From NCBI RefSeq assembly GCF_016651435.1, contig NZ_JAEPRJ010000001.1:1240001-1304000 (forward strand): 64,000 nucleotides of DNA, written 5' to 3'. The position numbers and the translations under genes are program-made. The notes under the pieces were generated by a model that made no database searches, had not been told where the DNA came from, and was given only the letters and a program-made list of their open reading frames with translations. This document shows, piece after piece, positions 7,755 to 50,674 of this stretch. The stretch comes from Catonella massiliensis (GTDB taxonomy: Bacteria > Bacillota > Clostridia > Lachnospirales > Lachnospiraceae). Within the stretch, counting starts at the first letter, position 1. Every line of letters starts with the position of its first letter.

Positions 7755-7793
7755 AGGGTTTAAATCTTTCTAACAAGATTTAAACCCTTTTTT
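7755..7793 (+). terminator. Rho-independent terminator of nrdD-nrdG
   Basis: AGGGTTTAAATCTT (7755-7768) and AAGATTTAAACCCT (7775-7788) form a 14-bp perfect stem followed by a run of T through 7793. Confidence 0.93.
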
Positions 7794-7829
7794 AATAAAT
7801 TCTCCTGCAAGCAAGTCCCAATCGAATTT

Positions 7830-7852
7830 TTATACTTTTGACACTTGTATCA
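7830..7852 (-). repeat. Dispersed dyad repeat, copy A
   Basis: Read on the minus strand this begins TGATACAAGTGTCAAAAG and is identical for 23 bases to copy B at 27103-27125. Its core (7839-7852) is the dyad TGAYAC-NN-GTRTCA. It lies between the nrdG terminator and the 3' end of the convergent YprB gene, so it is not in front of an annotated gene. A weaker half-match follows at 7881-7894. Confidence 0.75.
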
Positions 7853-21867: not shown

Positions 21868-21960
21868 ATTGATGTAGAAAAATTACAATTAGCTATGATA
21901 ACAATATGCGATGTAGTATGATTATGACTTCGCTTTTTGGAATTTTCACATAGTTTTTGC

Positions 21961-22031
21961 AAGGATTGCGGTAAGCGTAGCTGTAGCAATCCTGTATTAA
22001 TGGGTGTCAAATACTTTTGATACCCACATCA
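21961..22031 (-). repeat. 71-bp structured repeat, copy D
   Basis: Read on the minus strand, this aligns without gaps to copy E at 25076-25146 with 57 of 71 bases identical. Two stems are possible: TGGGTGTCAA (22001-22010) with TTGATACCCA (22017-22026), one G-T pair; and AGGATTGC (21962-21969) with GCAATCCT (21986-21993). Its first part is a diverged form of the dyad repeat seen in copies A, B and C. Confidence 0.85.
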
Positions 22032-22064
22032 TAATATAGGTTTACGTTAATATCAGGAGGTAAT

Positions 22065-23114
22065 ATGGCTGAGCAAACTTATAGTCAGCAGGTTGATATA
22101 GATAATGAATTAAAGCTTAGAGGGCTTCTACTTAAGCTTCCCCAATTTGCATCTGAATTCTTCAGAGGTATAGAGTCAACAACTGCATCAAGAACAAGGA
22201 TAGCCTACGCCTATGACCTTATCGTCTTTTTTAACTGGCTTAAGGAGTCTAATCCTGCTCTATCAAACATTGATGTGAGAAATATTGATATCAGTATTTT
22301 AGATAGCTTAAAAGCAATAGATATAGAGGAATACATATCTTATATCAGGTACTATGTAAAAGACGGTGAAGGGCATGGCAACAAAGAAAAAGGTATTAAG
22401 CGTAAGCTTGTGGCGCTTAGAACCTTTTATAAGTATTATTACAAAAAAGAAAGAATCAAAAATAATCCAAGTGTTCTCGTAGATACTCCTAAGCTCCACG
22501 ATAAGGCAATAGTGAGACTCGAACCTGAAGAGGTTGCTGACTTGCTTGATAATATCGAGTCAGGCGAAGGACTGACTGCTGCTCAAAACAGGTATCATGA
22601 AAAGACGTCTGTGAGAGATTTGGCGATAGTTACTCTCCTGCTTGGTACAGGTATTCGTGTCTCTGAGTGTGTAGGAATTGATATCAAAGATGTTGACTTT
22701 AAGACTAATGGAGTGAAGGTACACAGAAAGGGCGGTTATGAAACTGTTGTGTACTTTGGTGATGAAACACAAGCAGCTCTTAAAAAGTACTTGGATGAAA
22801 GAATCAAAATAGAAGCTGCAGAAGGTCATACAAATGCCCTCTTTTTATCTATGCAAAAAAAGAGAATAAGTGTACGTGCAGTTGAATTATTGGTCAAAAA
22901 ATATTCCAGTCTGGTAACTACAATGAAAAAAATAACTCCTCATAAACTTAGAAGTACCTATGGAACCAGTTTATATAGAGAAACAGGTGATATTTATCTT
23001 GTAGCCGATGTGCTTGGTCACAAGGACGTAAATACTACAAAGAAGCACTATGCTGCCATTGAAGAAGATAGGCGAAGAAAGGCAGCAAATATTGTGAAAC
23101 TGCGTAAAGAATAG
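22065..23114 (+). CDS. XerS-like tyrosine recombinase
   Basis: Site-specific recombinase of 349 residues with an N-terminal SAM-like core-binding domain (~25-135) and a catalytic domain. All active residues are visible: R198 in GTGIRVSE, K222 in VHRKGG, H293 and R296 in TPHKLRSTYG, H319 in LGHKD, and the nucleophile Y329 in KKHYAA. The extended N-terminus and the central insert around 165-182 resemble XerS, the single Xer enzyme of streptococci that resolves chromosome dimers. AGGAGG precedes the ATG. A role in chromosome resolution is inferred; a lone integrase is the alternative. Confidence 0.85.
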   Translation: MAEQTYSQQVDIDNELKLRGLLLKLPQFASEFFRGIESTTASRTRIAYAYDLIVFFNWLKESNPALSNIDVRNIDISILDSLKAIDIEEYISYIRYYVKDGEGHGNKEKGIKRKLVALRTFYKYYYKKERIKNNPSVLVDTPKLHDKAIVRLEPEEVADLLDNIESGEGLTAAQNRYHEKTSVRDLAIVTLLLGTGIRVSECVGIDIKDVDFKTNGVKVHRKGGYETVVYFGDETQAALKKYLDERIKIEAAEGHTNALFLSMQKKRISVRAVELLVKKYSSLVTTMKKITPHKLRSTYGTSLYRETGDIYLVADVLGHKDVNTTKKHYAAIEEDRRRKAANIVKLRKE

Positions 23115-23125
23115 AAGGAGCCGCA

Positions 23126-23689
23126 ATGAGCCATAGTAATGAAGAATTTATGGAAGCGTTTAAACACTTGGATAAAATCTGTAAAGAAATATTTAACAGT
23201 GAAAAAGGCGTAACTTCATATATCGATGCAATGGAAAAAATAACAAATGGAGATAGATATGTTTCAAACTGGGACTATGTTCTTAAGAGGTTAAAAAAAC
23301 TACGACACATAAGAAACCAATATGCCCATGAAATAGGATCATCCTATGATAATATATGTGCGCCAGAGGATATTGAATGGCTTAAAAGCTTCTACAACGA
23401 AATAATGAACACTACAGATCCTTTGGCGCAATATAGAAAAGCTACTATAAAGAAACAGGAAAAAGACAAAACAACTGAATCTAAATCTATGGCATCAGTG
23501 CCTAATCCATCAAAACTTACACAAGAAATATCAACACCAAAATCTGCTAGTTACAATCAACTACACACACTTCAATCTCAATGCAATGATGAAAATGAAG
23601 GAGACGCAAGTAGATTAGGCATAGTTCTAATTTTTGTCATTGCAACACTGATTACTTGTGGAATATTATATGTTGCCTTTTATATTTAG
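23126..23689 (+). CDS. Hypothetical protein with RNxxAH motif and C-terminal membrane anchor
   Basis: I cannot name this 187-residue protein. Residues ~1-100 are helical and contain RHIRNQYAHEIG, with R63 and H68 in an R-x4-H pattern like that of HEPN ribonuclease and DUF4145-like domains. Residues ~105-155 are a polar, lysine- and serine-rich linker. Residues ~163-186 form one hydrophobic helix, so the domain should face the cytoplasm on a tail anchor. AAGGAG precedes the ATG 11 bp after the recombinase stop, so the two are probably co-transcribed. HEPN membership is an inference from the motif. Confidence 0.65.
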   Translation: MSHSNEEFMEAFKHLDKICKEIFNSEKGVTSYIDAMEKITNGDRYVSNWDYVLKRLKKLRHIRNQYAHEIGSSYDNICAPEDIEWLKSFYNEIMNTTDPLAQYRKATIKKQEKDKTTESKSMASVPNPSKLTQEISTPKSASYNQLHTLQSQCNDENEGDASRLGIVLIFVIATLITCGILYVAFYI

Positions 23690-23696
23690 TCTCAAA

Positions 23697-24041
23697 TCAT
23701 TTTGTATATGGAATAATAAGGCTTACTCCGGCAGAAATTTCATCACCGGTGAGATTGTTACACTCTTTTATAGCCTCTACATAATCTTTGGTACTGCTAT
23801 AGTAAACAGAGTCATAGCTCTGTGCAATGCTCCACAAGGTCTCACCCTGCTTCACTACCCTACTGTCTATGTATACAGGCTTCATTTCTGAATCGGCCTT
23901 TACAAAGTTGTTAGAGAAGCCAAGAAAATATGAAAAAACCATTGTAATAACATAAAAAGTTAAAATAAAGCTGATTTTACTTCTCTTGTTTCTCTGACGA
24001 TTCCCTGCTTTATAATGTACTCTCTTATTATTCTTAGTCAT
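23697..24041 (-). CDS. yneA: YneA-like SOS cell-division inhibitor with LysM domain
   Basis: A 114-residue protein: basic N-terminus, one membrane helix (~26-44), then a LysM domain (~60-112: VKQGETLWSIAQSY...VSLIIPYT). This layout, and its position divergent from lexA, match YneA of Bacillus, which delays septation while the SOS response is on. A consensus promoter with a LexA box between -35 and -10 lies upstream. The gene ends seven bases from the convergent HEPN-like gene. LysM proteins are common, so the family name depends mainly on the synteny and operator. Confidence 0.8.
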   Translation of the reverse strand: MTKNNKRVHYKAGNRQRNKRSKISFILTFYVITMVFSYFLGFSNNFVKADSEMKPVYIDSRVVKQGETLWSIAQSYDSVYYSSTKDYVEAIKECNNLTGDEISAGVSLIIPYTK

Positions 24042-24076
24042 AATCTAAATCCCCCTAAATAATAAACAAATGTTTG

Positions 24077-24164
24077 CGAACAACCGTTCTGATATAGTTA
24101 TTATATCGAACAAATATTCTTTTGTCAACAGGGAAATCGAACAAATTTTTGGAACATCCGTTTG
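24077..24164. promoter_or_regulatory. Cluster of LexA (SOS) boxes
   Basis: Matches to CGAAC-N4-GTTCK occur at 24077-24090 (CGAACAACCGTTCT), 24107-24120 (CGAACAAATATTCT) and, weaker, 24138-24151 and 24151-24164 (GGAACATCCGTTTG). The first three starts are 30-31 bp apart. The second box sits inside the yneA promoter and the fourth overlaps the lexA -35, so both genes should be repressed by LexA. Confidence 0.88.
24100..24128 (-). promoter_or_regulatory. Consensus promoter of yneA
   Basis: On the minus strand: TTGACA (24128-24123), exactly 17 bp, TATAAT (24105-24100). Both hexamers match the consensus perfectly, as expected for a strong promoter held off by a repressor. Confidence 0.88.
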
Positions 24165-24190
24165 ACATTTAGAAATAAATGATATATACT
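24162..24190 (+). promoter_or_regulatory. Promoter of lexA
   Basis: TTGACA (24162-24167), 17-bp spacer, TATACT (24185-24190). The -35 overlaps the fourth LexA box. Confidence 0.85.
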
Positions 24191-24226
24191 TGAGTCATGT
24201 ATTATTAGGAATTTGGAGGAATAGTT

Positions 24227-24841
24227 ATGGGCTATGGTAAGATAACTGCTAAGCAGCAGGAAATATTAGATTATTTGAAAACACAGGTTTTGTCTAAAGG
24301 TTATCCACCTTCAGTTAGGGAAATATGCGAAGCAGTACACTTAAAGTCAACTTCATCTGTTCACTCTCACCTTGAGACCTTAGAGAAGAATGGTTATATC
24401 AGGCGTGACCCTACTAAGCCTCGTGCAATAGAGATTGTTGATGATGAGTTCAATATCACAAGAAGAGAGCTCGTAAGTATTCCTGTTGTGGGTACTGTTG
24501 CGGCGGGTGAGCCTATTTTTGCTGTGGAGAATATATCCGAGTACTTCCCTATTCCTGCGGAGTATATGCCTAATGAAGAGACTTTCATGCTTGTAGTAAA
24601 GGGCGACAGTATGATTAATGTCGGCGTTTACAGCGGAGATAAGATTATTGTCAAAAAATGTTCAACTGCTTCAAACGGTGATATGGTAGTGGCTATGGTA
24701 GACGATTCTGCCACTGTCAAGACTTTTTATAAAGAGAAAAACCACTTTAGATTACAGCCTGAAAATGACTCCATGGAGCCTATTATAGTTGATCAGGTAG
24801 AAATCCTTGGTAAAGTTATAGGACTTATAAGAATGTATTAG
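24227..24841 (+). CDS. lexA: SOS repressor LexA
   Basis: Self-cleaving repressor of the DNA damage response, 204 residues. The N-terminal winged helix (1-70) reads [16 protein letters not shown]...[21 protein letters not shown]. The C-terminal S24 peptidase domain has the Ala-Gly cleavage site A93-G94 (GTVAAGEP), the nucleophile S128 (KGDSMI) and K165 (TVKTFY). RecA filaments trigger its autocleavage. GGAGG precedes the ATG. Multiple LexA boxes upstream show autoregulation together with the divergent yneA. Confidence 0.97.
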
Positions 24842-24880
24842 AATATTATACAGTATTTACCAACAGCTTAAACTTAAAAT

Positions 24881-24933
24881 ATAAGGTTACAGAGCTATAT
24901 TATAGCTAATAAGGTTACAGCGATATATTATAG
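24881..24933 (+). repeat. Imperfect 25-bp tandem direct repeat
   Basis: 24881-24905 (ATAAGGTTACAGAGCTATAT...) and 24909-24933 (ATAAGGTTACAGCGATATAT...) differ at three positions and repeat with a 28-bp period, just after the lexA stop. Confidence 0.8.
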
Positions 24934-24960
24934 AGGATTGCTACATTGCTTCTTATAATT

Positions 24961-25064
24961 GCAGGAATTATAGGAATTAAAATAATGATACCACAGCTGA
25001 TTACGACTAATCCGCCTTAAACTAGGCATAATAATTAGTTAAATCAGCTGTGGTATTTTCCTGC
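24961..25064 (+). terminator. Nested hairpin, probable (bidirectional) terminator of lexA
   Basis: The main stem is 15 bp: ATACCACAGCTGATT (24988-25002) with AATCAGCTGTGGTAT (25042-25056), followed by TTTT. Inner CTAAT/ATTAG and GCCT/AGGC stems and an outer GCAGGAA (24961-24967) / TTCCTGC (25058-25064) pair make it more elaborate than an ordinary terminator. T-rich sequence on both sides suggests it can act in both directions. A small RNA is an alternative. Confidence 0.7.
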
Positions 25065-25075
25065 TGCTTATTATA

Positions 25076-25146
25076 TGATGTGTGTGTCAACAGTACTTGA
25101 CACAAATTGATACAGGATTGCTACAGCTGAACTTTTAGCAGTCCTT
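25076..25146 (+). repeat. 71-bp structured repeat, copy E
   Basis: 80% identical to copy D over 71 ungapped bases but in the opposite orientation. Stem 1: TGTGTCAA (25083-25090) with TTGACACA (25097-25104). Stem 2: AGGATTGC (25113-25120) with GCAGTCCT (25138-25145), with one G-T pair. The differences between D and E mostly fall in loops or keep pairing. Confidence 0.85.
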
Positions 25147-27102: not shown

Positions 27103-27125
27103 TGATACAAGTGTCAAAAGTATAA
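27103..27125 (+). repeat. Dispersed dyad repeat, copy B
   Basis: Starts TGATACAAGTGTCAAAAG and is identical to copy A (minus strand, 7830-7852) for 23 bases. It lies in the 83 bp between obg and the yhbY start codon. On the minus strand the dyad contains TTGACA, so it could overlap a yhbY promoter. Confidence 0.75.
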
Positions 27126-33112: not shown

Positions 33113-33940
33113 TTACCCCTTAACTCCCGATAAAGCAATTCCTTCAATAAACTGTTCCTGAAAAATTGCAAATAGAATTAAAAGTGGTGCAACTGACATA
33201 ACTGCTCCAGCCATCATAAGAGGATAATCAGTTACATATTGCCCCTGTAAGCTGGAAAGACCTGCAGCAAGTGTCATTTTTTGCTCAGATGTATTAACTA
33301 TGAGTGGCCACATCAGATCATTCCAAGCAAATCTTAAAGTTAATATACCAAGTGCTACAAGACCTGACTTAACAAGAGGAAGCATTATTTTATAGTATAT
33401 CATAAACCTGTTACACCCATCAATTCTTGCTGCATCCTCGAGCGAATCTGGTAATGATTTAAAGAACTGTCTTAACAAAAATGTACCAAATATACTGAAG
33501 AGGTTTGGTAAAAATAGAGCAGGTAAGCTATTTAACAAACCTAAGCCCTGAATAATTTGATACTGTGGTAGTATAAAAAATGACGAAGGTATCATAAGTA
33601 CAGAGAGTAATATTGTAAAAATAACATTCTTTCCGGGAAATTTCAGTCTTGCAAATGCATAAGCTGCCATTGAGCAGAATAGAAGCTGTACAGATACAAT
33701 TACAACAGCATTAATTATAGTATTTAAGTACATTCTACCAAAGGGAATTGCTTTAAAAACAGCAAAGTAATTCTTTATCAACCATTCCTTTGGGAAAATA
33801 GTAATTGGTATTTTAATTGATTCAATTTGGCTCTTAAATGATGTTAATATCATCCATATAAAAGGAAAAACTGTAATGCCAACTCCACCAATTAATATTA
33901 TGTATACAAAAAACTTCCCAATATTATATTTTTTATTCAT
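33113..33940 (-). CDS. Carbohydrate ABC transporter permease (MalG/AraQ type)
   Basis: One of two membrane subunits of a CUT1 sugar importer, 275 residues with six predicted helices. The cytoplasmic EAA loop reads DAARIDGCNRFMIYYKIMLPLVKSGL, where the ATPase docks. It starts eight bases after the stop of the partner permease. No ATPase gene is in the operon, so a shared MsmX-like ATPase encoded elsewhere is likely. Confidence 0.93.
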   Translation of the reverse strand: MNKKYNIGKFFVYIILIGGVGITVFPFIWMILTSFKSQIESIKIPITIFPKEWLIKNYFAVFKAIPFGRMYLNTIINAVVIVSVQLLFCSMAAYAFARLKFPGKNVIFTILLSVLMIPSSFFILPQYQIIQGLGLLNSLPALFLPNLFSIFGTFLLRQFFKSLPDSLEDAARIDGCNRFMIYYKIMLPLVKSGLVALGILTLRFAWNDLMWPLIVNTSEQKMTLAAGLSSLQGQYVTDYPLMMAGAVMSVAPLLILFAIFQEQFIEGIALSGVKG

Positions 33941-33948
33941 ATACCCTC

Positions 33949-34842
33949 CTATTCATAATTTACCCATTTTTTCTGAAGCTTCATCTGTATAAGGGTAACA
34001 AGCATTATTATTAGAAAAAGGAAGACCGCAAGAGCAGAGGCATAGCCCTTTTTAGAATATGAAAATGCATTTCTGAAAAAGTACATAACCATACTCTGAG
34101 TCGCCTCCATAGCTATACCACTTTCTTTTATCATCATATATATAGTATCAAATGTTTGAAAAGTTCCTATCAAATTGGTTATGAGTACAAAAAAGAGTGT
34201 AGGTGTGACCAATGGTAAAGTTATTCCAAAAAACTGTTTTACCGGGCTTGCTCCATCAATGGATGCTGCTTCATAATATGTTTTTGAAATTCCTTGTATG
34301 CCTGCAAGAAGTATAATCATATTATATCCGACATTTATCCAAATACTAACCAAACATATCGAAAGAAGAGCTGTGTTAGGATTAGTAAGGAAATTTACTG
34401 AATCAAAACCAAGTGCATTTAAGATTGCATTTATAATTCCGTGATCACTGTTATACATCCATTTCCATATCATTGCAACTGCCGCACCCATTGTTATAGC
34501 TGGAATGAAATATACAACCCTAAAGAATCCTCTTCCTTTAATTTTGGTATTGAGTAAAGCTGCAAGTATAAGTGAAATTATTATGGTTCCTGGAACTATT
34601 ACTATTACATAGCTAAAGGTATTAAATAATGATGACCACATTTTAGGATCATTAAACATAGTTAAGTAATTATCAAGTCCCACAAATGAACGTTTATTAA
34701 ACGAGCCAACCTCATAAAAACTATCAATAATTACTTTAAATATAGGATATATATAAAATACTAATAGTCCTGCAACAACAGGAAAAATCATTAAATATCC
34801 TGTGAGCCACTCTTTATTCAGCTTAATAGAAGTTTTTTTCAT
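33949..34842 (-). CDS. Sugar ABC transporter permease (MalF/LacF type)
   Basis: Partner permease of 297 residues with six predicted helices and the EAA loop YEAASIDGASPVKQFFGITLPLVTP. AGGAGG-like sequence precedes the start. It follows the binding-protein gene after a 117-bp gap holding a strong hairpin, a layout that often makes the binding protein more abundant than the permeases. Confidence 0.93.
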   Translation of the reverse strand: MKKTSIKLNKEWLTGYLMIFPVVAGLLVFYIYPIFKVIIDSFYEVGSFNKRSFVGLDNYLTMFNDPKMWSSLFNTFSYVIVIVPGTIIISLILAALLNTKIKGRGFFRVVYFIPAITMGAAVAMIWKWMYNSDHGIINAILNALGFDSVNFLTNPNTALLSICLVSIWINVGYNMIILLAGIQGISKTYYEAASIDGASPVKQFFGITLPLVTPTLFFVLITNLIGTFQTFDTIYMMIKESGIAMEATQSMVMYFFRNAFSYSKKGYASALAVFLFLIIMLVTLIQMKLQKKWVNYE

Positions 34843-34867
34843 TGTGCCTCCTAACTTTATAGAAACA

Positions 34868-34891
34868 GGGCGTACTCGAAACAGTACGCCC
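34868..34891 (-). other. Hairpin between binding protein and permease genes
   Basis: GGGCGTACT (34868-34876) and AGTACGCCC (34883-34891) make a perfect 9-bp GC-rich stem with a 6-base loop. No U-run follows, so it more likely stabilises the upstream message or attenuates than terminates. A smaller TTGGA/TCCAA hairpin follows at 34905-34918. Confidence 0.7.
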
Positions 34892-34959
34892 CACCTTTAT
34901 CGACTTGGACTAATCCAAATATTTTGCAAAAAGCTTACCTTTCTGAACATTGTTTGCCT

Positions 34960-36243
34960 TTATTTTTCATTTTTTAATACTTCGTTCATTTCTTTCGCAA
35001 GTTTATCGCAAGCTTCTTTTACACTAACTTCTAAACTAAATGCCTTCTTTAAGTTATCTGCCTGATATTGTGTCCACTCTCCAGTATTAAGTGACACAGG
35101 ATAAGGATATGAGTATTCCTCTGCTGCCTTAATAAACATCGACAAATTATATTTAGGATTTTTCTCTACCCAATCTTTAGAGGTTCCTTTATATGCAGGT
35201 ATTGCAGCACCTGTTTCTGCAGATAGCTTATTAGCCTGTTCACTAGCAAGAAATTCTACCCATTTCCAAGCTGCTTCAGGATTCTTAGTGCTCTTAGCAA
35301 TACAATTTCCAAGTCCATGAATAACTGTTGCCTTTTTACCATTTATTGAAGGTAATGCTACTACATCAATATCATCCTGAACTTCTGAGCCAATAATCTG
35401 ATTTAAGAACCAAGAACCATTCATAAGCATAGCTATCTTTCCGGATAAAAACTGAACATAATCTTCAGTCTCTTCAAGAGAAGCCTGTGAAGGTGTCACT
35501 CCTTCCTTCTGGAGATCTATTAAAAGTTGTACACCGGCTTGTGTCTCTGCCTTGTTATAACCTGAGCTTTTCTTGTCATCAGAAATAACATATCCTCCTG
35601 ATGCGAAAATAGTATTATAAATTCCTGTTTGGTCTCTATATTGTACAGCAGTGCCGTATACACTTTTATCTTCCTTTGTGAGCTGCTTCGCAGTAGCTAC
35701 ATAATCATCCCAAGTCCAATCATCTTTTGGATATGGAACTCCTGCAGCATCAAAAAGTTTTTTATTGTACCAGATTCCAATAGTATCAAAATCCTTTGGT
35801 ATTGCATACTGTACACCATCTACATTATAAAGCTTTAACAGAGCTTCCGGATAATTTGAAAGATCTATTCCTGCTTCTTTAATTTTGTCGTCAATAGGTA
35901 GAAGCACATCTCCCTTTGCGTATTTTGTTATATTTGGTCCATTCAACCAAAATACATCAGCACTGCTGCCACCTGTTGCCCCCGCTTCTAACTTTTTCCA
36001 ATATTCTTCCCATCCACTATTTTCAAGTGTTACTTTTACATTTGGATAAAGCTTATTGAACTCCGCGACACATTTTTCGAAATATGGTGCCTGTCCTTTA
36101 TCCCAGAAAGCATACCTTATCTCTCCTGAAATATCACCTTCCTTAGTGTCCTTTGAACCACTAGCTCCACCAGAACATGCTGTAAGTGCTGAAACAGCTG
36201 TTACCAAACCAAGTCCCAATGCGACAAATTTCTTAAACTTCAT
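34960..36243 (-). CDS. Sugar ABC transporter extracellular solute-binding lipoprotein
   Basis: Family 1 solute-binding protein of 427 residues. The signal peptide ends in the lipobox LTAC (cysteine near 23), so it is lipid-anchored outside. The mature part has EIRYAFWDKGQAPYF, the W-rich ADVFWLNGPN segment, and AWKWVEFLASEQ near the end, typical of CUT1 oligosaccharide binders. It captures sugar for the two following permeases. GAAGGGAG precedes the ATG and a separate promoter lies upstream. Confidence 0.93.
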   Translation of the reverse strand: MKFKKFVALGLGLVTAVSALTACSGGASGSKDTKEGDISGEIRYAFWDKGQAPYFEKCVAEFNKLYPNVKVTLENSGWEEYWKKLEAGATGGSSADVFWLNGPNITKYAKGDVLLPIDDKIKEAGIDLSNYPEALLKLYNVDGVQYAIPKDFDTIGIWYNKKLFDAAGVPYPKDDWTWDDYVATAKQLTKEDKSVYGTAVQYRDQTGIYNTIFASGGYVISDDKKSSGYNKAETQAGVQLLIDLQKEGVTPSQASLEETEDYVQFLSGKIAMLMNGSWFLNQIIGSEVQDDIDVVALPSINGKKATVIHGLGNCIAKSTKNPEAAWKWVEFLASEQANKLSAETGAAIPAYKGTSKDWVEKNPKYNLSMFIKAAEEYSYPYPVSLNTGEWTQYQADNLKKAFSLEVSVKEACDKLAKEMNEVLKNEK

Positions 36244-36296
36244 ATGTTTCTCCCTTCTCTATAAAACATTTTAGGCTTCTGCCTAAGTCTGATTCT

Positions 36297-36416
36297 ATTA
36301 TAGATTGGTTTGAATAATTTTACGATTGACTTGGTTTACATGATTTTGGACTATTTATACTTGTTTTTAGTACAAAATATGTATTATTTTTACTTTAATT
36401 TGGATTATTTTTACTT
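36297..36416 (-). promoter_or_regulatory. Promoter and candidate activator sites of the sugar transport operon
   Basis: A perfect TATAAT (-10, minus strand 36302-36297) has no good -35 at 17 bp (TCGTAA), as in activator-dependent promoters. Upstream lie two identical 13-bp copies of ATTATTTTTACTT (36383-36395 and 36404-36416), exactly 21 bp apart, and a variant ACTATTTATACTT (36350-36362). Direct repeats two helical turns apart suit an AraC-type regulator such as the one encoded two genes upstream. The left copies overlap the 3' end of the previous gene. A TTAGGC/GCCTAA hairpin lies in the leader at 36271-36286. Confidence 0.6.
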
Positions 36417-37486
36417 AAAATCTCTTTATATGCATTGTATACTTCAATATCCTTATCTTTGACAAGTTCTATATCTATATTAGGATTGGATGGCAATTTG
36501 TAAAGCTCTGTTAATAGTTTTTCTTGTACTTCTTTACTTAGCATATATTTTATAAACCTAATACTCGCTTCCTCTTGAACCTTACTTCCCCAATTACTGA
36601 TGATATATCCTGAACTTGGAAATAGAGAAAATTTATTCAAGCCTTTGCCAATTGGAAAACTCTCAAATCCAGCCTTCATATTATTAGTGATATTCCTTTT
36701 TTCATGTATCTCTCCAAAGTAAACAGCACTATGACCAACATTAAAACTTCTTAATTCATCTTTATACAGGGAATCAACTTTTTTAATGTTATTTTGCTTA
36801 AGAAAATCACCAATCTCAATTGAAATAGCTTTATTATTTTTACCATTGAGAGATTCCGTTAAGCTATTTACAAGATTGTCAGTCAATTGGACTGCAACAG
36901 TTGAGTTAGAATGTTCTTTAGACCAATAATTAATTTTCTTAACCATAGTTACAAAGCTATTATAATCCCCAGGAATTTTTTCTATTCCTGCAAGCTTAAA
37001 TATTTCTTTGTTGTACCAATATCCTTTTGTTTCAAGTATATCAGTGACAGTGTAAAGAGCATTGGGAGCTTCCTTCCATGTATTTAGAACTATTTTAGAT
37101 ATATTCTCTTTTAATTCACTATCATTTTCTATATAAGGCATTAGATTCAAGGCATAACCTTTCTCTACCATAAATTTATAAACAGTGCTCGAATCAGAAT
37201 TACCATTGTATATTATATTTGGAGCCTTTCCAATTACAAGAAGATCTTTTGCTTTTTCAAGAACTTGATTAAACGAAGGAACTGATACCAGTGTTAAGCT
37301 GATATCAGTATTCTTCTCTTCAAATTCTTTATATATCTTTCTCATAATGATATCTTCTTTACTAGCTCCTCCAAATCCATGTAATAGAGTTATATTAACT
37401 TTATTTTCTTGACTTATTGGTTTATTGCAACTACACATAGAAAACACAATTAACACTGTTAAAAATAACAACTTTACTTTCATCAT
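36395..37486 (-). CDS. Second extracellular solute-binding lipoprotein (sensor-linked)
   Basis: A 363-residue family 1 binding protein with a signal peptide and candidate lipid-attachment cysteine in SMCSCNK. The body has ITLLHGFGG, NIIYNGNSD, KGYWYNKEIFKLAGI and FPSSGYIISNWGSK. It starts two bases after the response regulator stop and is separated from the transporter by a new promoter, so it is transcribed with the two-component genes. It may present sugar to the histidine kinase rather than feed the permeases; this is inferred from gene order. Confidence 0.85.
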   Translation of the reverse strand: MMKVKLLFLTVLIVFSMCSCNKPISQENKVNITLLHGFGGASKEDIIMRKIYKEFEEKNTDISLTLVSVPSFNQVLEKAKDLLVIGKAPNIIYNGNSDSSTVYKFMVEKGYALNLMPYIENDSELKENISKIVLNTWKEAPNALYTVTDILETKGYWYNKEIFKLAGIEKIPGDYNSFVTMVKKINYWSKEHSNSTVAVQLTDNLVNSLTESLNGKNNKAISIEIGDFLKQNNIKKVDSLYKDELRSFNVGHSAVYFGEIHEKRNITNNMKAGFESFPIGKGLNKFSLFPSSGYIISNWGSKVQEEASIRFIKYMLSKEVQEKLLTELYKLPSNPNIDIELVKDKDIEVYNAYKEILSKNNPN

Positions 37487-37487
37487 A

Positions 37488-38234
37488 CTATCCTCTTAGC
37501 TCTTTTTGATATTCACTTGGCGAAATTCCCTCATACTTTTTAAAAACTCGTGAAAAATATGCTGTATCCTCCATGCCTACGTTTAATGCTATTTCATACA
37601 TTCTTAATTCATTATTTTTTATCAGTTGCTTAGCCTTTTCTATTTTTCTCTTATTTATATAATCAAATAAATTTTCTCCTGCTTTTTCTTTGAACATTCT
37701 GCTAATATAGCTTTTATTCATATGTATAGATTCAGCTATATCAGTAAGGGATAGCTTTTTATCTAAATTTTCTTCGATATACTTTTCTATATTTTGTATA
37801 ACATACGCACAGTTTTCAATGTTTGCATCATCATTGTTCAAATCACTTTGATTCTCAGATTCTGCGTTTTCAGAAACAATCTTTGCTAGTATTAAAGGGA
37901 GTTCATCTAGTAAGTCATTTTTTACAACATAATGTTTTACTCCGTACTCTATGGCTTCTTTTGCATACTGAAACTTTGAATATGCGGTAAGCAGTATAAC
38001 TATAACATTTTTATAATTTTCACTTATATATTTTGCAATCTGCAATCCGCTTACAGACGGCATTTGGATATCCGTAATAACTATGTCGGGCAATAACACA
38101 GGCAAGTTATCTATTAAATCCTTCCCATTTTCAAAATCTCCTACTAACCTAACACCGATTTTTTCCCAATCTATTAAGCTTTTTAAGCCTTCTCGTACAA
38201 AAGGTTCATCATCAGCAATGACTACTTTAAGCAT
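37488..38234 (-). CDS. Response regulator with AraC-type DNA-binding domain (YesN-like)
   Basis: A 248-residue regulator: receiver domain 1-120 with acidic pocket ADDE, phosphoacceptor D55 in ITDIQMP and the LLTAYSKFQYAKEAIEYG signature, then a two-helix-turn-helix AraC domain ~140-246 ending EDTAYFSRVFKKYEGISPSEYQK. It is cognate to the preceding histidine kinase and should activate the sugar uptake genes downstream. Confidence 0.95.
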   Translation of the reverse strand: MLKVVIADDEPFVREGLKSLIDWEKIGVRLVGDFENGKDLIDNLPVLLPDIVITDIQMPSVSGLQIAKYISENYKNVIVILLTAYSKFQYAKEAIEYGVKHYVVKNDLLDELPLILAKIVSENAESENQSDLNNDDANIENCAYVIQNIEKYIEENLDKKLSLTDIAESIHMNKSYISRMFKEKAGENLFDYINKRKIEKAKQLIKNNELRMYEIALNVGMEDTAYFSRVFKKYEGISPSEYQKELRG

Positions 38235-38261
38235 TGAATTTCCTCCAATCTAATATCTTTG

Positions 38262-40001
38262 TTAAAATATTTCAGAGTTCTTAAAATTATGACAAGATTC
38301 CTCTAAATATGGCAATTTGATAATAACTTTTGTCCCTTTACCTATTTTACTTTCAACCTCGATTCCATACTCTGAACCATATAAATTGTTTATCAATCTG
38401 TTAATATTCATCAAGCCAACTTTAGGACTTCCTTCCTTTTCACCGCTAATTACTTTGTCTTTATCAAACCCAACTCCATTATCGGCAACAGTAATTAATA
38501 AAACCTCATTATTTTGTTGCTCAATTTTTACATTGATATAACCTCTATCATCTTTGGGCTCAATACCATGAATCATTGCATTTTCCACTACAGGTTCAAT
38601 ACAGAGTTTAGGTATAAAAAGAGTTTTTAGCTTTTCATCTTCCCAATTAATTTCATACGACACCTTATTCTTAAATCGTTCTTTGGAAAGATATAAATAA
38701 AACTCCGCTATTTCTATTTCTTCATTTATCCTTATCTCAATTTCATCTTTTCTAAACAATTTCCCTCTCATAAGTCCTGCAAACGCTTGAACCATTTTAT
38801 ATAGTTCCTCATCCTTATTTAATTTCAACCTAATAGCTATCATAGAAAGCACATTAAACATAAAGTGAGGATTAATCTGTGCCTGTAAATATTTAATTCT
38901 TGCTTCCTTTATCAATAATCCGGCTTCATACACCTCCTTGATTAGATGTGATATTTTGTCAGTCATCTCATTGAAAGACACACTTATTTCATCCAATTCT
39001 AATATTTCATAGGTGTCAAGTTTTGTTCTAAAATCTCCCTTACCTACCTGTTTCATTTTTAGAACAATAGTAGATAATGGCGATACCAGTTTGTCAGAAA
39101 TATATAGGATTACAAGAATTATACCTATTATCAATGAAATAAAAATAAATATTATGGTTCCAAAGTCTTCCACTGCCATTATAAATAACCTTCTATATGG
39201 TACAACCATACAAGAAGACAATCCAAAGCTATTTTTAGACATATTATAAATATAAGTATGATTTTCATATTCTACATCTCCATTGTTTCCTTTAATATCC
39301 AAACTAGATATCAAAGGTATACTCCTTCCCATTAAAATCTTATCAGTTTCATCCTTAAACATATAAGCAAAACTTGTATACTTTTCTTCCAAAATATTAA
39401 CTATATAATTTATAGCTGTTTTTGATAGGACAGCTATACCATAGCCTTCCTTTTCCAACTCCTCATCATATATAGTAAAATATAATTCTAAGTCATCTCC
39501 GGTAGTATAATACGAAAATCTTCTGTTTTCAGAGATATATTCTTCAAGGATATTTTTAATTCTATATTGTTTGTCTTTTTCATTCAAATATGAAGTATAA
39601 TAGAAATGCGTTCCCACCATTTTTTTATTATTGCTAACAATATATAAGTCTTTAACAAACGGATAAATATCTCCTACCAAATTACTGGATGAAAAAAGGT
39701 TTACACTCTTGTCAAGCACACGAGAGATATTGTCTTTATCAGTTGTTCCTTCTTTCAAAAATCTTTCTATTTCCTCACTTCTTCTTAGCGAAAGTACACT
39801 ATCTTCAAGAAATCCCATATATCCATCAATCTGACCTTTTATGCTATTCAGATAGAAGTTGAGATCATCAATTCTATATTTAAGAGACTGCTTTAACATA
39901 AAGAAAGAGAGTACCCCGCCAACCAGAAAAAAAATAACAATAGCTGTACCTAAAAGAGTTCTCATCAACTCTTTTTTTAAGGTTCTTTTTCTGAGTTTCA
40001 T
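38262..40001 (-). CDS. Sensor histidine kinase (YesM-like)
   Basis: A 579-residue membrane kinase: helix ~15-37, an extracellular sensor region to ~275, second helix ~278-300, HAMP ~302-352, the His_kinase motif EARIKYLQAQINPHFMFNVL with the phosphorylated histidine, and a HATPase domain with VENAMIHGIEP and VADNGVGFD. Kinases of this type sense extracellular sugars, often through a binding protein. It is the first gene of the kinase-regulator-binding protein transcript. Confidence 0.94.
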   Translation of the reverse strand: MKLRKRTLKKELMRTLLGTAIVIFFLVGGVLSFFMLKQSLKYRIDDLNFYLNSIKGQIDGYMGFLEDSVLSLRRSEEIERFLKEGTTDKDNISRVLDKSVNLFSSSNLVGDIYPFVKDLYIVSNNKKMVGTHFYYTSYLNEKDKQYRIKNILEEYISENRRFSYYTTGDDLELYFTIYDEELEKEGYGIAVLSKTAINYIVNILEEKYTSFAYMFKDETDKILMGRSIPLISSLDIKGNNGDVEYENHTYIYNMSKNSFGLSSCMVVPYRRLFIMAVEDFGTIIFIFISLIIGIILVILYISDKLVSPLSTIVLKMKQVGKGDFRTKLDTYEILELDEISVSFNEMTDKISHLIKEVYEAGLLIKEARIKYLQAQINPHFMFNVLSMIAIRLKLNKDEELYKMVQAFAGLMRGKLFRKDEIEIRINEEIEIAEFYLYLSKERFKNKVSYEINWEDEKLKTLFIPKLCIEPVVENAMIHGIEPKDDRGYINVKIEQQNNEVLLITVADNGVGFDKDKVISGEKEGSPKVGLMNINRLINNLYGSEYGIEVESKIGKGTKVIIKLPYLEESCHNFKNSEIF

Positions 40002-40114
40002 ACAATTCTCTACCTTTCAACACAAAAACTAAGCTAATTGTATCATAAAATGTCATATATTTCATCAATATTTTGCTATAATCTGATTAAAAACTATTTT
40101 AGTTGCTGTTATAA

Positions 40115-50614: not shown

Positions 50615-50674
50615 TGATACAAGTGTCAAAGCACATAATGATACAAGTGTCAAAAATATCTGACACCCGTATCA
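50615..50674. promoter_or_regulatory. Three 14-bp dyads in front of the Fur-like gene (repeat copy C)
   Basis: TGATACAAGTGTCA at 50615-50628 and 50639-50652, and TGACACCCGTATCA at 50661-50674, fit TGAYAC-NN-GTRTCA and repeat with 24- and 22-bp spacing, about two helical turns. The first ends 22 bp before the start codon. They resemble a shortened Fur box (TGATAAT-N-ATTATCA) and may be autoregulatory operators. The second and third together align with the first part of repeats D and E. Confidence 0.7.

Follow-up and report, generated by a model that had tools for sequence, protein, structure and literature searches.

A pair of inverted repeats at the xerS-lexA segment

The window analysed here is a stretch of 64,000 nucleotides from Catonella massiliensis (contig NZ_JAEPRJ010000001.1, positions 1,240,001 to 1,304,000; coordinates below are counted within it), in which two copies of a 71-bp repeat, termed D and E, lie in inverted orientation on either side of a tyrosine recombinase gene and lexA. 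Copy D (21961..22031, minus strand) ends 33 bp upstream of the start codon of the recombinase gene (22065..23114, plus strand; PF00589 and PF02899), named XerS-like in a first-pass annotation of this DNA, and copy E (25076..25146, plus strand) is located between lexA (24227..24841, plus strand; PF01726 and PF00717) and a convergent rsfS-like gene. The 71-bp repeat is a partial unit, corresponding to about positions 1-71 of a ~203-bp element that has the properties of a miniature inverted-repeat transposable element (MITE) and whose full-length copies match Rfam family RF01699, the Clostridiales-1 RNA.

The first-pass annotation had described D and E as inverted repeats with 57 identical bases out of 71 in a gap-free alignment, enclosing the recombinase gene and lexA, and all of this was recovered, with the same coordinates and count and with PF00589, PF01726 and PF00717 found in the enclosed genes. 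The D-E match has a BLASTN E-value of 1.3e-13 in a search within the window, where no other full-length 71-base match besides D and E was found, and it forms the longest of seven inverted pairs reported by a repeat finder (78 nt, 79% complementary). Two hairpins are predicted in each copy, as had also been claimed, and folding against 200 shuffles agrees, with z = -4.4 and -6.3 on the two strands for D (0/200 shuffles equal it on either strand) and z = -3.4 and -3.0 for E (1 and 2 of 200 shuffles as good). One position in the left stem of D is mismatched (A-C) when one strand is folded and paired (G-U) when the other is. Two small features lie 3′ of lexA: a perfect 15-bp inverted repeat (24988-25056, arms 24988-25002 and 25042-25056), possibly a terminator or other small element, and a 16-base stretch (24930-24945) with 15 bases identical to the second hairpin of the element, which could be a fragment of a further copy or a chance match.

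Full-length copies, their ends and their target sites

Longer copies of the family measure 200-205 bp and carry terminal inverted repeats (TIRs) at both termini, which read GATGTGGGTGTCAAAAG / GATACAAGTGTCAAAAG in Catonella and GATGTTGGGGTCAAAAG / GATACCAGGGTCAAAAG in other genera. Copy D is a left-end piece that matches full-element positions 1-76, with its TIR at 22011-22030, and E is a decayed left-end piece of the same MITE that matches positions 1-67, with its TIR at 25077-25096 bearing three mismatches. Both alignments stop at about position 71-76 and diverge beyond, and several other copies end there too. For the analysis of target sites, we used a two-ended set of 42 rows with ends 185-235 bp apart, drawn mostly from the best-scoring hits rather than from every copy; it includes L366, an element that has no repeat, two times over, and the pattern failed to pick up L011, an own-genome copy flanked by a 7-bp repeat. 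Exact direct repeats of 7-9 bp flank 28 of the 42 (19 of 7 bp, seven of 8 bp and two of 9 bp), exact repeats of 4-6 bp flank none, and in a control where left and right flanks of different copies were paired, 16/1722 combinations reached 7 bp. The 28 copies with a duplication come from nine genomes of eight genera, 11 of them from Catonella morbi, and the consensus of the 7-bp duplications is the AT-rich ATNWWAT. With a length of ~203 bp, no transposase gene, TIRs at both ends and a target-site duplication, the element has what defines a MITE. Shorter two-ended classes also exist, with size peaks at 34 and ~76 bp; in the 60-89 bp class, exact 7-bp repeats flank 3/19 copies and at least six of seven positions match in 10/19 (controls 1.4% and 7.8%), and in the 28-44 bp class, which is mixed with left hairpins of longer copies, exact repeats flank 2/24. 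Open reading frames (ORFs) of at least 150 aa make up 76% of the fetched segments that exceed 2.5 kb in length, and yet none of 30 chosen copies has its midpoint inside one.

Copies are dispersed throughout the genome of C. massiliensis (3.12 Mb, three contigs), where D as a query finds 44 places on both strands at E<=10 and, counting D and E themselves, 23 at E<1e-4, and a 20-base end pattern allowing up to three mismatches gives 90 hits against 10 for a reversed control. In the genus, the 201-bp element matches 2/5 genomes. Across the family Lachnospiraceae, with two candidates per genome scored, 25 of 299 sampled genomes give a match at 1e-5, the own genome being one of the 25, and in nine other genera copies of 71-80% identity extend over nearly the entire query. 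No exact match to the 20-base right-end pattern was found in viral contigs, and plasmids gave no match; 9 of 50,697 phage records match, as judged from their listing, all of them unannotated human faecal contigs and one with a full-length copy.

Catonella morbi ATCC 51271 is the closest named relative at this locus, with a recombinase 88% identical, and genome G001 is taken here as C. morbi. The blocks inside and on either side of the D-E segment, the recombinase gene among them, are collinear and run in the same direction in C. morbi; D is absent there, and the lexA-rsfS gap holds a copy of its own, in orientation opposite to E and without the left ~33 bases. The window in turn is without a MITE insertion that C. 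morbi has beside a polC-like gene. A base-precise empty site was sought between C. morbi and the window and no exact junction was found, because the intergenic DNA has diverged too far between the two species for the junction to be recoverable. The blocks flanking a single C. morbi MITE copy (G001:C1:264473) lie ~6.8 kb apart in the window (33180-40022), so that a larger indel separates the two species there.

Other features of the window include three further family pieces, namely a right-end MITE piece with an intact right TIR (7792..7851, plus strand; full-element positions 142-201), a solo right-type TIR (27104..27123, minus strand) and a strandless palindromic mini-copy of 34 bp (50640..50673), which consists of two TIRs back to back with an extra TIR piece ahead, so that the whole spans 50616-50673. 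Between D and E, a DUF6548/HEPN-like gene (23126-23689) follows xerS, and a short ORF on the minus strand is putatively yneA, a name given in the first-pass annotation only. In none of 67 testable relatives did tblastn at 1e-5 find the DUF6548/HEPN-like gene in the 1.5 kb that follow xerS, and in C. morbi only ~190 bp separate the neighbouring aligned blocks; the gene may have been gained in this lineage.

IS1182-like elements with matching ends

Candidate partners were sought with a related transposase fragment from genome G236, which was searched against 397 genomes of the family at a threshold of 1e-40 and matched 11 of them. Six of the 11 transposase loci, in other genera of Lachnospiraceae, have MITE-like TIRs at both ends, delimiting elements of 1843, 1848, 1860, 1863, 1945 and 2017 bp; these TIRs differ at 0-3 of 17 bases, and one end of L384 is also one base short. 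Exact duplications of 7-8 bp flank four of the six (ATCAATAT, ATGACAT, ATATCAT and ATATAAT), and two of the six have an in-frame stop within the transposase. Among the other five loci, three have one end (L377 and L378 share their coding sequence) and two have none. Four full-length ORFs of 546-559 aa contain both PF05598 and PF13751 above cut-off in every case. The 1945-bp element (L385) has ends of the Catonella type, and the start of its transposase resembles that of C. morbi, where a 1.55-kb stretch carries GATGTGGGTGTCAAAAGT (18-base ends) at both ends and decayed transposase pieces (PF05598 and PF13751). IS1182-like insertion sequences with these two domains are thus like the MITE in their TIRs and in their 7-8 bp AT-rich duplications, and differ from it by the transposase gene, which the MITE lacks.

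Other candidates for the partner were rejected. In the genome of C. massiliensis, just a broken transposase of IS256 type was found, at 1.998 Mb, and the end pattern has no hit within 4 kb of it; no such TIRs were seen at the ends of an intact 495-aa PF05598 protein of C. morbi; and the ORF between a pair of TIRs 2 kb apart in C. morbi (C3:130612-132619) resembles ilvD by eye and not a transposase. In a further locus (L342; G236:C1, ~2584.7 kb), the ORF that comes after a relative of the partner transposase resembles an IS110-type transposase by eye, and the same coding stretch is present in G285.

Given the sequence evidence, D and E are very probably separately inserted and since truncated copies of the ~203-bp MITE of IS1182-like elements. 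The first-pass annotation had offered a small non-autonomous element as one of its options, and this option is borne out by the TIRs, the duplications at 28/42 copies, the dispersed copies and the partner with matching ends. The inverted ends, the duplications, the dispersed intergenic copies, the presence or absence of copies between two species and the IS1182-like elements with matching ends are direct observations. As to the mechanism, an IS1182-like DDE transposase would act in trans on the MITE ends, insertion at AT-rich targets (ATNWWAT in the 7-bp cases) would create the 7-9 bp duplication, and D and E would have lost their right ends after insertion.

A number of points weigh against this interpretation. 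On the side of the MITE, 14/42 two-ended copies are without an exact duplication, a flanking duplication is present at two of the own genome's three full-length copies and absent from the third, and none can be demonstrated for D and E because each has one end only. On the side of the partner, two of the six two-ended IS1182-like elements, a 559-bp deletion form and the decayed stretch of C. morbi are without flanking repeats; L380, with an intact ORF of 541 aa, is without these ends, and L377 and L378 have one end only. The best NCBIfam match of the partner transposases is IS1182 (NF033551) at 121-149 bits, below its cut-off of 270, which makes them a divergent branch. A two-ended partner or relic was demonstrated in only a few MITE-bearing genomes, and the own genome has neither a PF05598 match nor a transposase match at 1e-40, so that the family may no longer move in it.

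The Clostridiales-1 RNA and competing explanations

The full-length element is already present in Rfam as RF01699 (gathering cut-off 48 bits), which is typed there as a small RNA (sRNA). All six copies scanned from other genera, out of 20 fetched loci, score 110.5-142.6 bits, the three full-length copies of the own genome score 78.5, 98.7 and 103.1 bits, all above the cut-off, and two C. morbi copies score 108-114.5 bits. The model finds 2 to at least 90 copies per genome in 14/14 genomes that were chosen since they already matched, and none in 14 control genomes. The likeness has its limits: the match lies on the strand opposite to the orientation of D and E and leaves out the left ~31 bases, which hold the left hairpin and left TIR; D reaches 19.4 bits in a sub-threshold hit (21870-21999), E gives no hit up to E = 10, and the Rfam scan of the window returned no family at or above its own cut-off. 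The suggestion of a structured RNA family thus holds for the full-length element as RF01699, not for the D and E fragments, which stay below the cut-off.

To weigh a conserved fold, covariation was scored over 30 full-length copies and 75 pairs, with 500 shuffles and a slid-partner control, on a structure predicted from one of the rows, which favours the predicted fold in the test. Pairing cells make up 87.3% (82.9 in shuffles), changes on both sides occur at 21/75 pairs (12.4 in shuffles, 2-5 with partners slid) and in 98 cells (40.3 and 2-32, respectively), and the covariation score is 0.129 (0.065 in shuffles). These four of the five measures exceed all 500 shuffles; the fifth, the number of further pair types, does not (33 observed, shuffle mean 34.6, 427/500 shuffles as high). 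Several pair types occur at columns 52/60 and 85/125, both distant from the TIRs, and pairs 40/205, 80/130, 103/109 and 141/202 mostly follow a single split between Catonella and the rest. As to strand preference, G-U and A-C counts are 90 vs 66, which is not decisive because the structure came from the strand that was scored. By eye, no consistent -10 of an outward promoter was seen in the TIR. The alignment is suggestive, not firm, with regard to a selected fold of the internal stems, and the odds of RNA readings are lowered because pair types are not above shuffles.

Taken as primarily a structured non-coding RNA gene, whose multiple copies would be a by-product of hitch-hiking or duplication, the element would agree with its Rfam type, with a 2010 table (PMC2864571) that lists Clostridiales-1 as probably RNA, not cis-regulatory, in Clostridiales and human gut, and with the excess of pairs and cells changing on both sides. 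We consider this improbable, since the pair types do not exceed shuffles, several double changes amount to one split that sets Catonella apart from the other genera, the left TIR is outside the Rfam match, copy numbers rise to at least 90 in one genome, and the element has inverted ends and 7-9 bp duplications. Movement as single strands, in the manner of IS200/IS605-type or REP-type palindromic elements, would suit the small size, the palindromic make-up and the intergenic position of the copies and the hairpins at their ends. Systems of that kind are not known to leave a target duplication, and here 28/42 copies have one and the partners carry the DDE domain PF13751, so that this mode of transposition is highly improbable. 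An IS630-like duplication of TA only was rejected as well, since the bases adjoining the ends vary (by eye).

The first-pass annotation had also proposed that D and E are recombination targets tied to xerS and lexA, that is, Xer-type sites letting the segment invert or move. The two copies do lie in inverted orientation at a distance of 3.1 kb, with a tyrosine recombinase gene between them, and the 23 copies include two pairs within 3115 bp, D-E and one other, a number that is reached in 8% of 20,000 simulations of random placement. Yet 0.50 neighbouring pairs within this distance are expected by chance and at least one arises in 40% of the simulations, copies occur throughout the genome on both strands, a dispersal that the first-pass annotation itself had set as an argument against a special link, and the enclosed segment has the same order and direction in C. 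morbi despite the absence of D, neither inverted nor missing. In addition, 38/67 testable relatives have lexA on the strand of the recombinase gene and no more than 3.5 kb from it, and a TIR within one mismatch is carried by 2/80 loci. The dispersal, the chance expectation and the collinearity together lead us to reject a special bracket around xerS-lexA; recombination targets of this kind have hardly any probability left, and the position of D and E around the two genes is most likely a coincidence.

The identity of the RF01699 "RNA" is thus most likely that of a non-autonomous transposon, a MITE of IS1182-like elements. The structured bacterial MITEs BOX, RUP, ERIC and NEMIS are likewise short, hairpin-rich, intergenic and multi-copy, and they differ from this element in sequence, hosts and, where known, transposase partner. 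The earlier statement that no described element has such a sequence needs qualification: the full-length sequence is described in Rfam as an RNA, and no account of it as mobile was found. In the literature on Clostridiales-1/RF01699, Lachnospiraceae MITEs and IS1182 MITEs, the titles and abstract openings hold no mobile-element description, and a remark may exist in the additional files of PMC2864571; as far as this literature shows, it is new to identify Clostridiales-1 as mobile and to name a candidate partner for it.

A 2010 candidate RNA of no known function thereby gains a concrete identity in the Lachnospiraceae, a testable pair of transposase and target is named, and the supposed link between the repeat and the SOS region is removed. 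Since the model finds 2 to at least 90 copies per carrier genome, the copy counts and conservation of the family need to be re-read as transposon biology. A further possibility, which we regard as rather unlikely, is that selection acts on the transposon Clostridiales-1 to preserve a folded form, either RNA or single-stranded DNA, so that compensatory change across genera would maintain the internal stems that lie outside the TIRs. If true, the folded molecule could recruit or regulate the IS1182-like transposase or act on read-through host transcripts, and Clostridiales-1 would be a mobile RNA gene that owes its spread to a DDE transposase.

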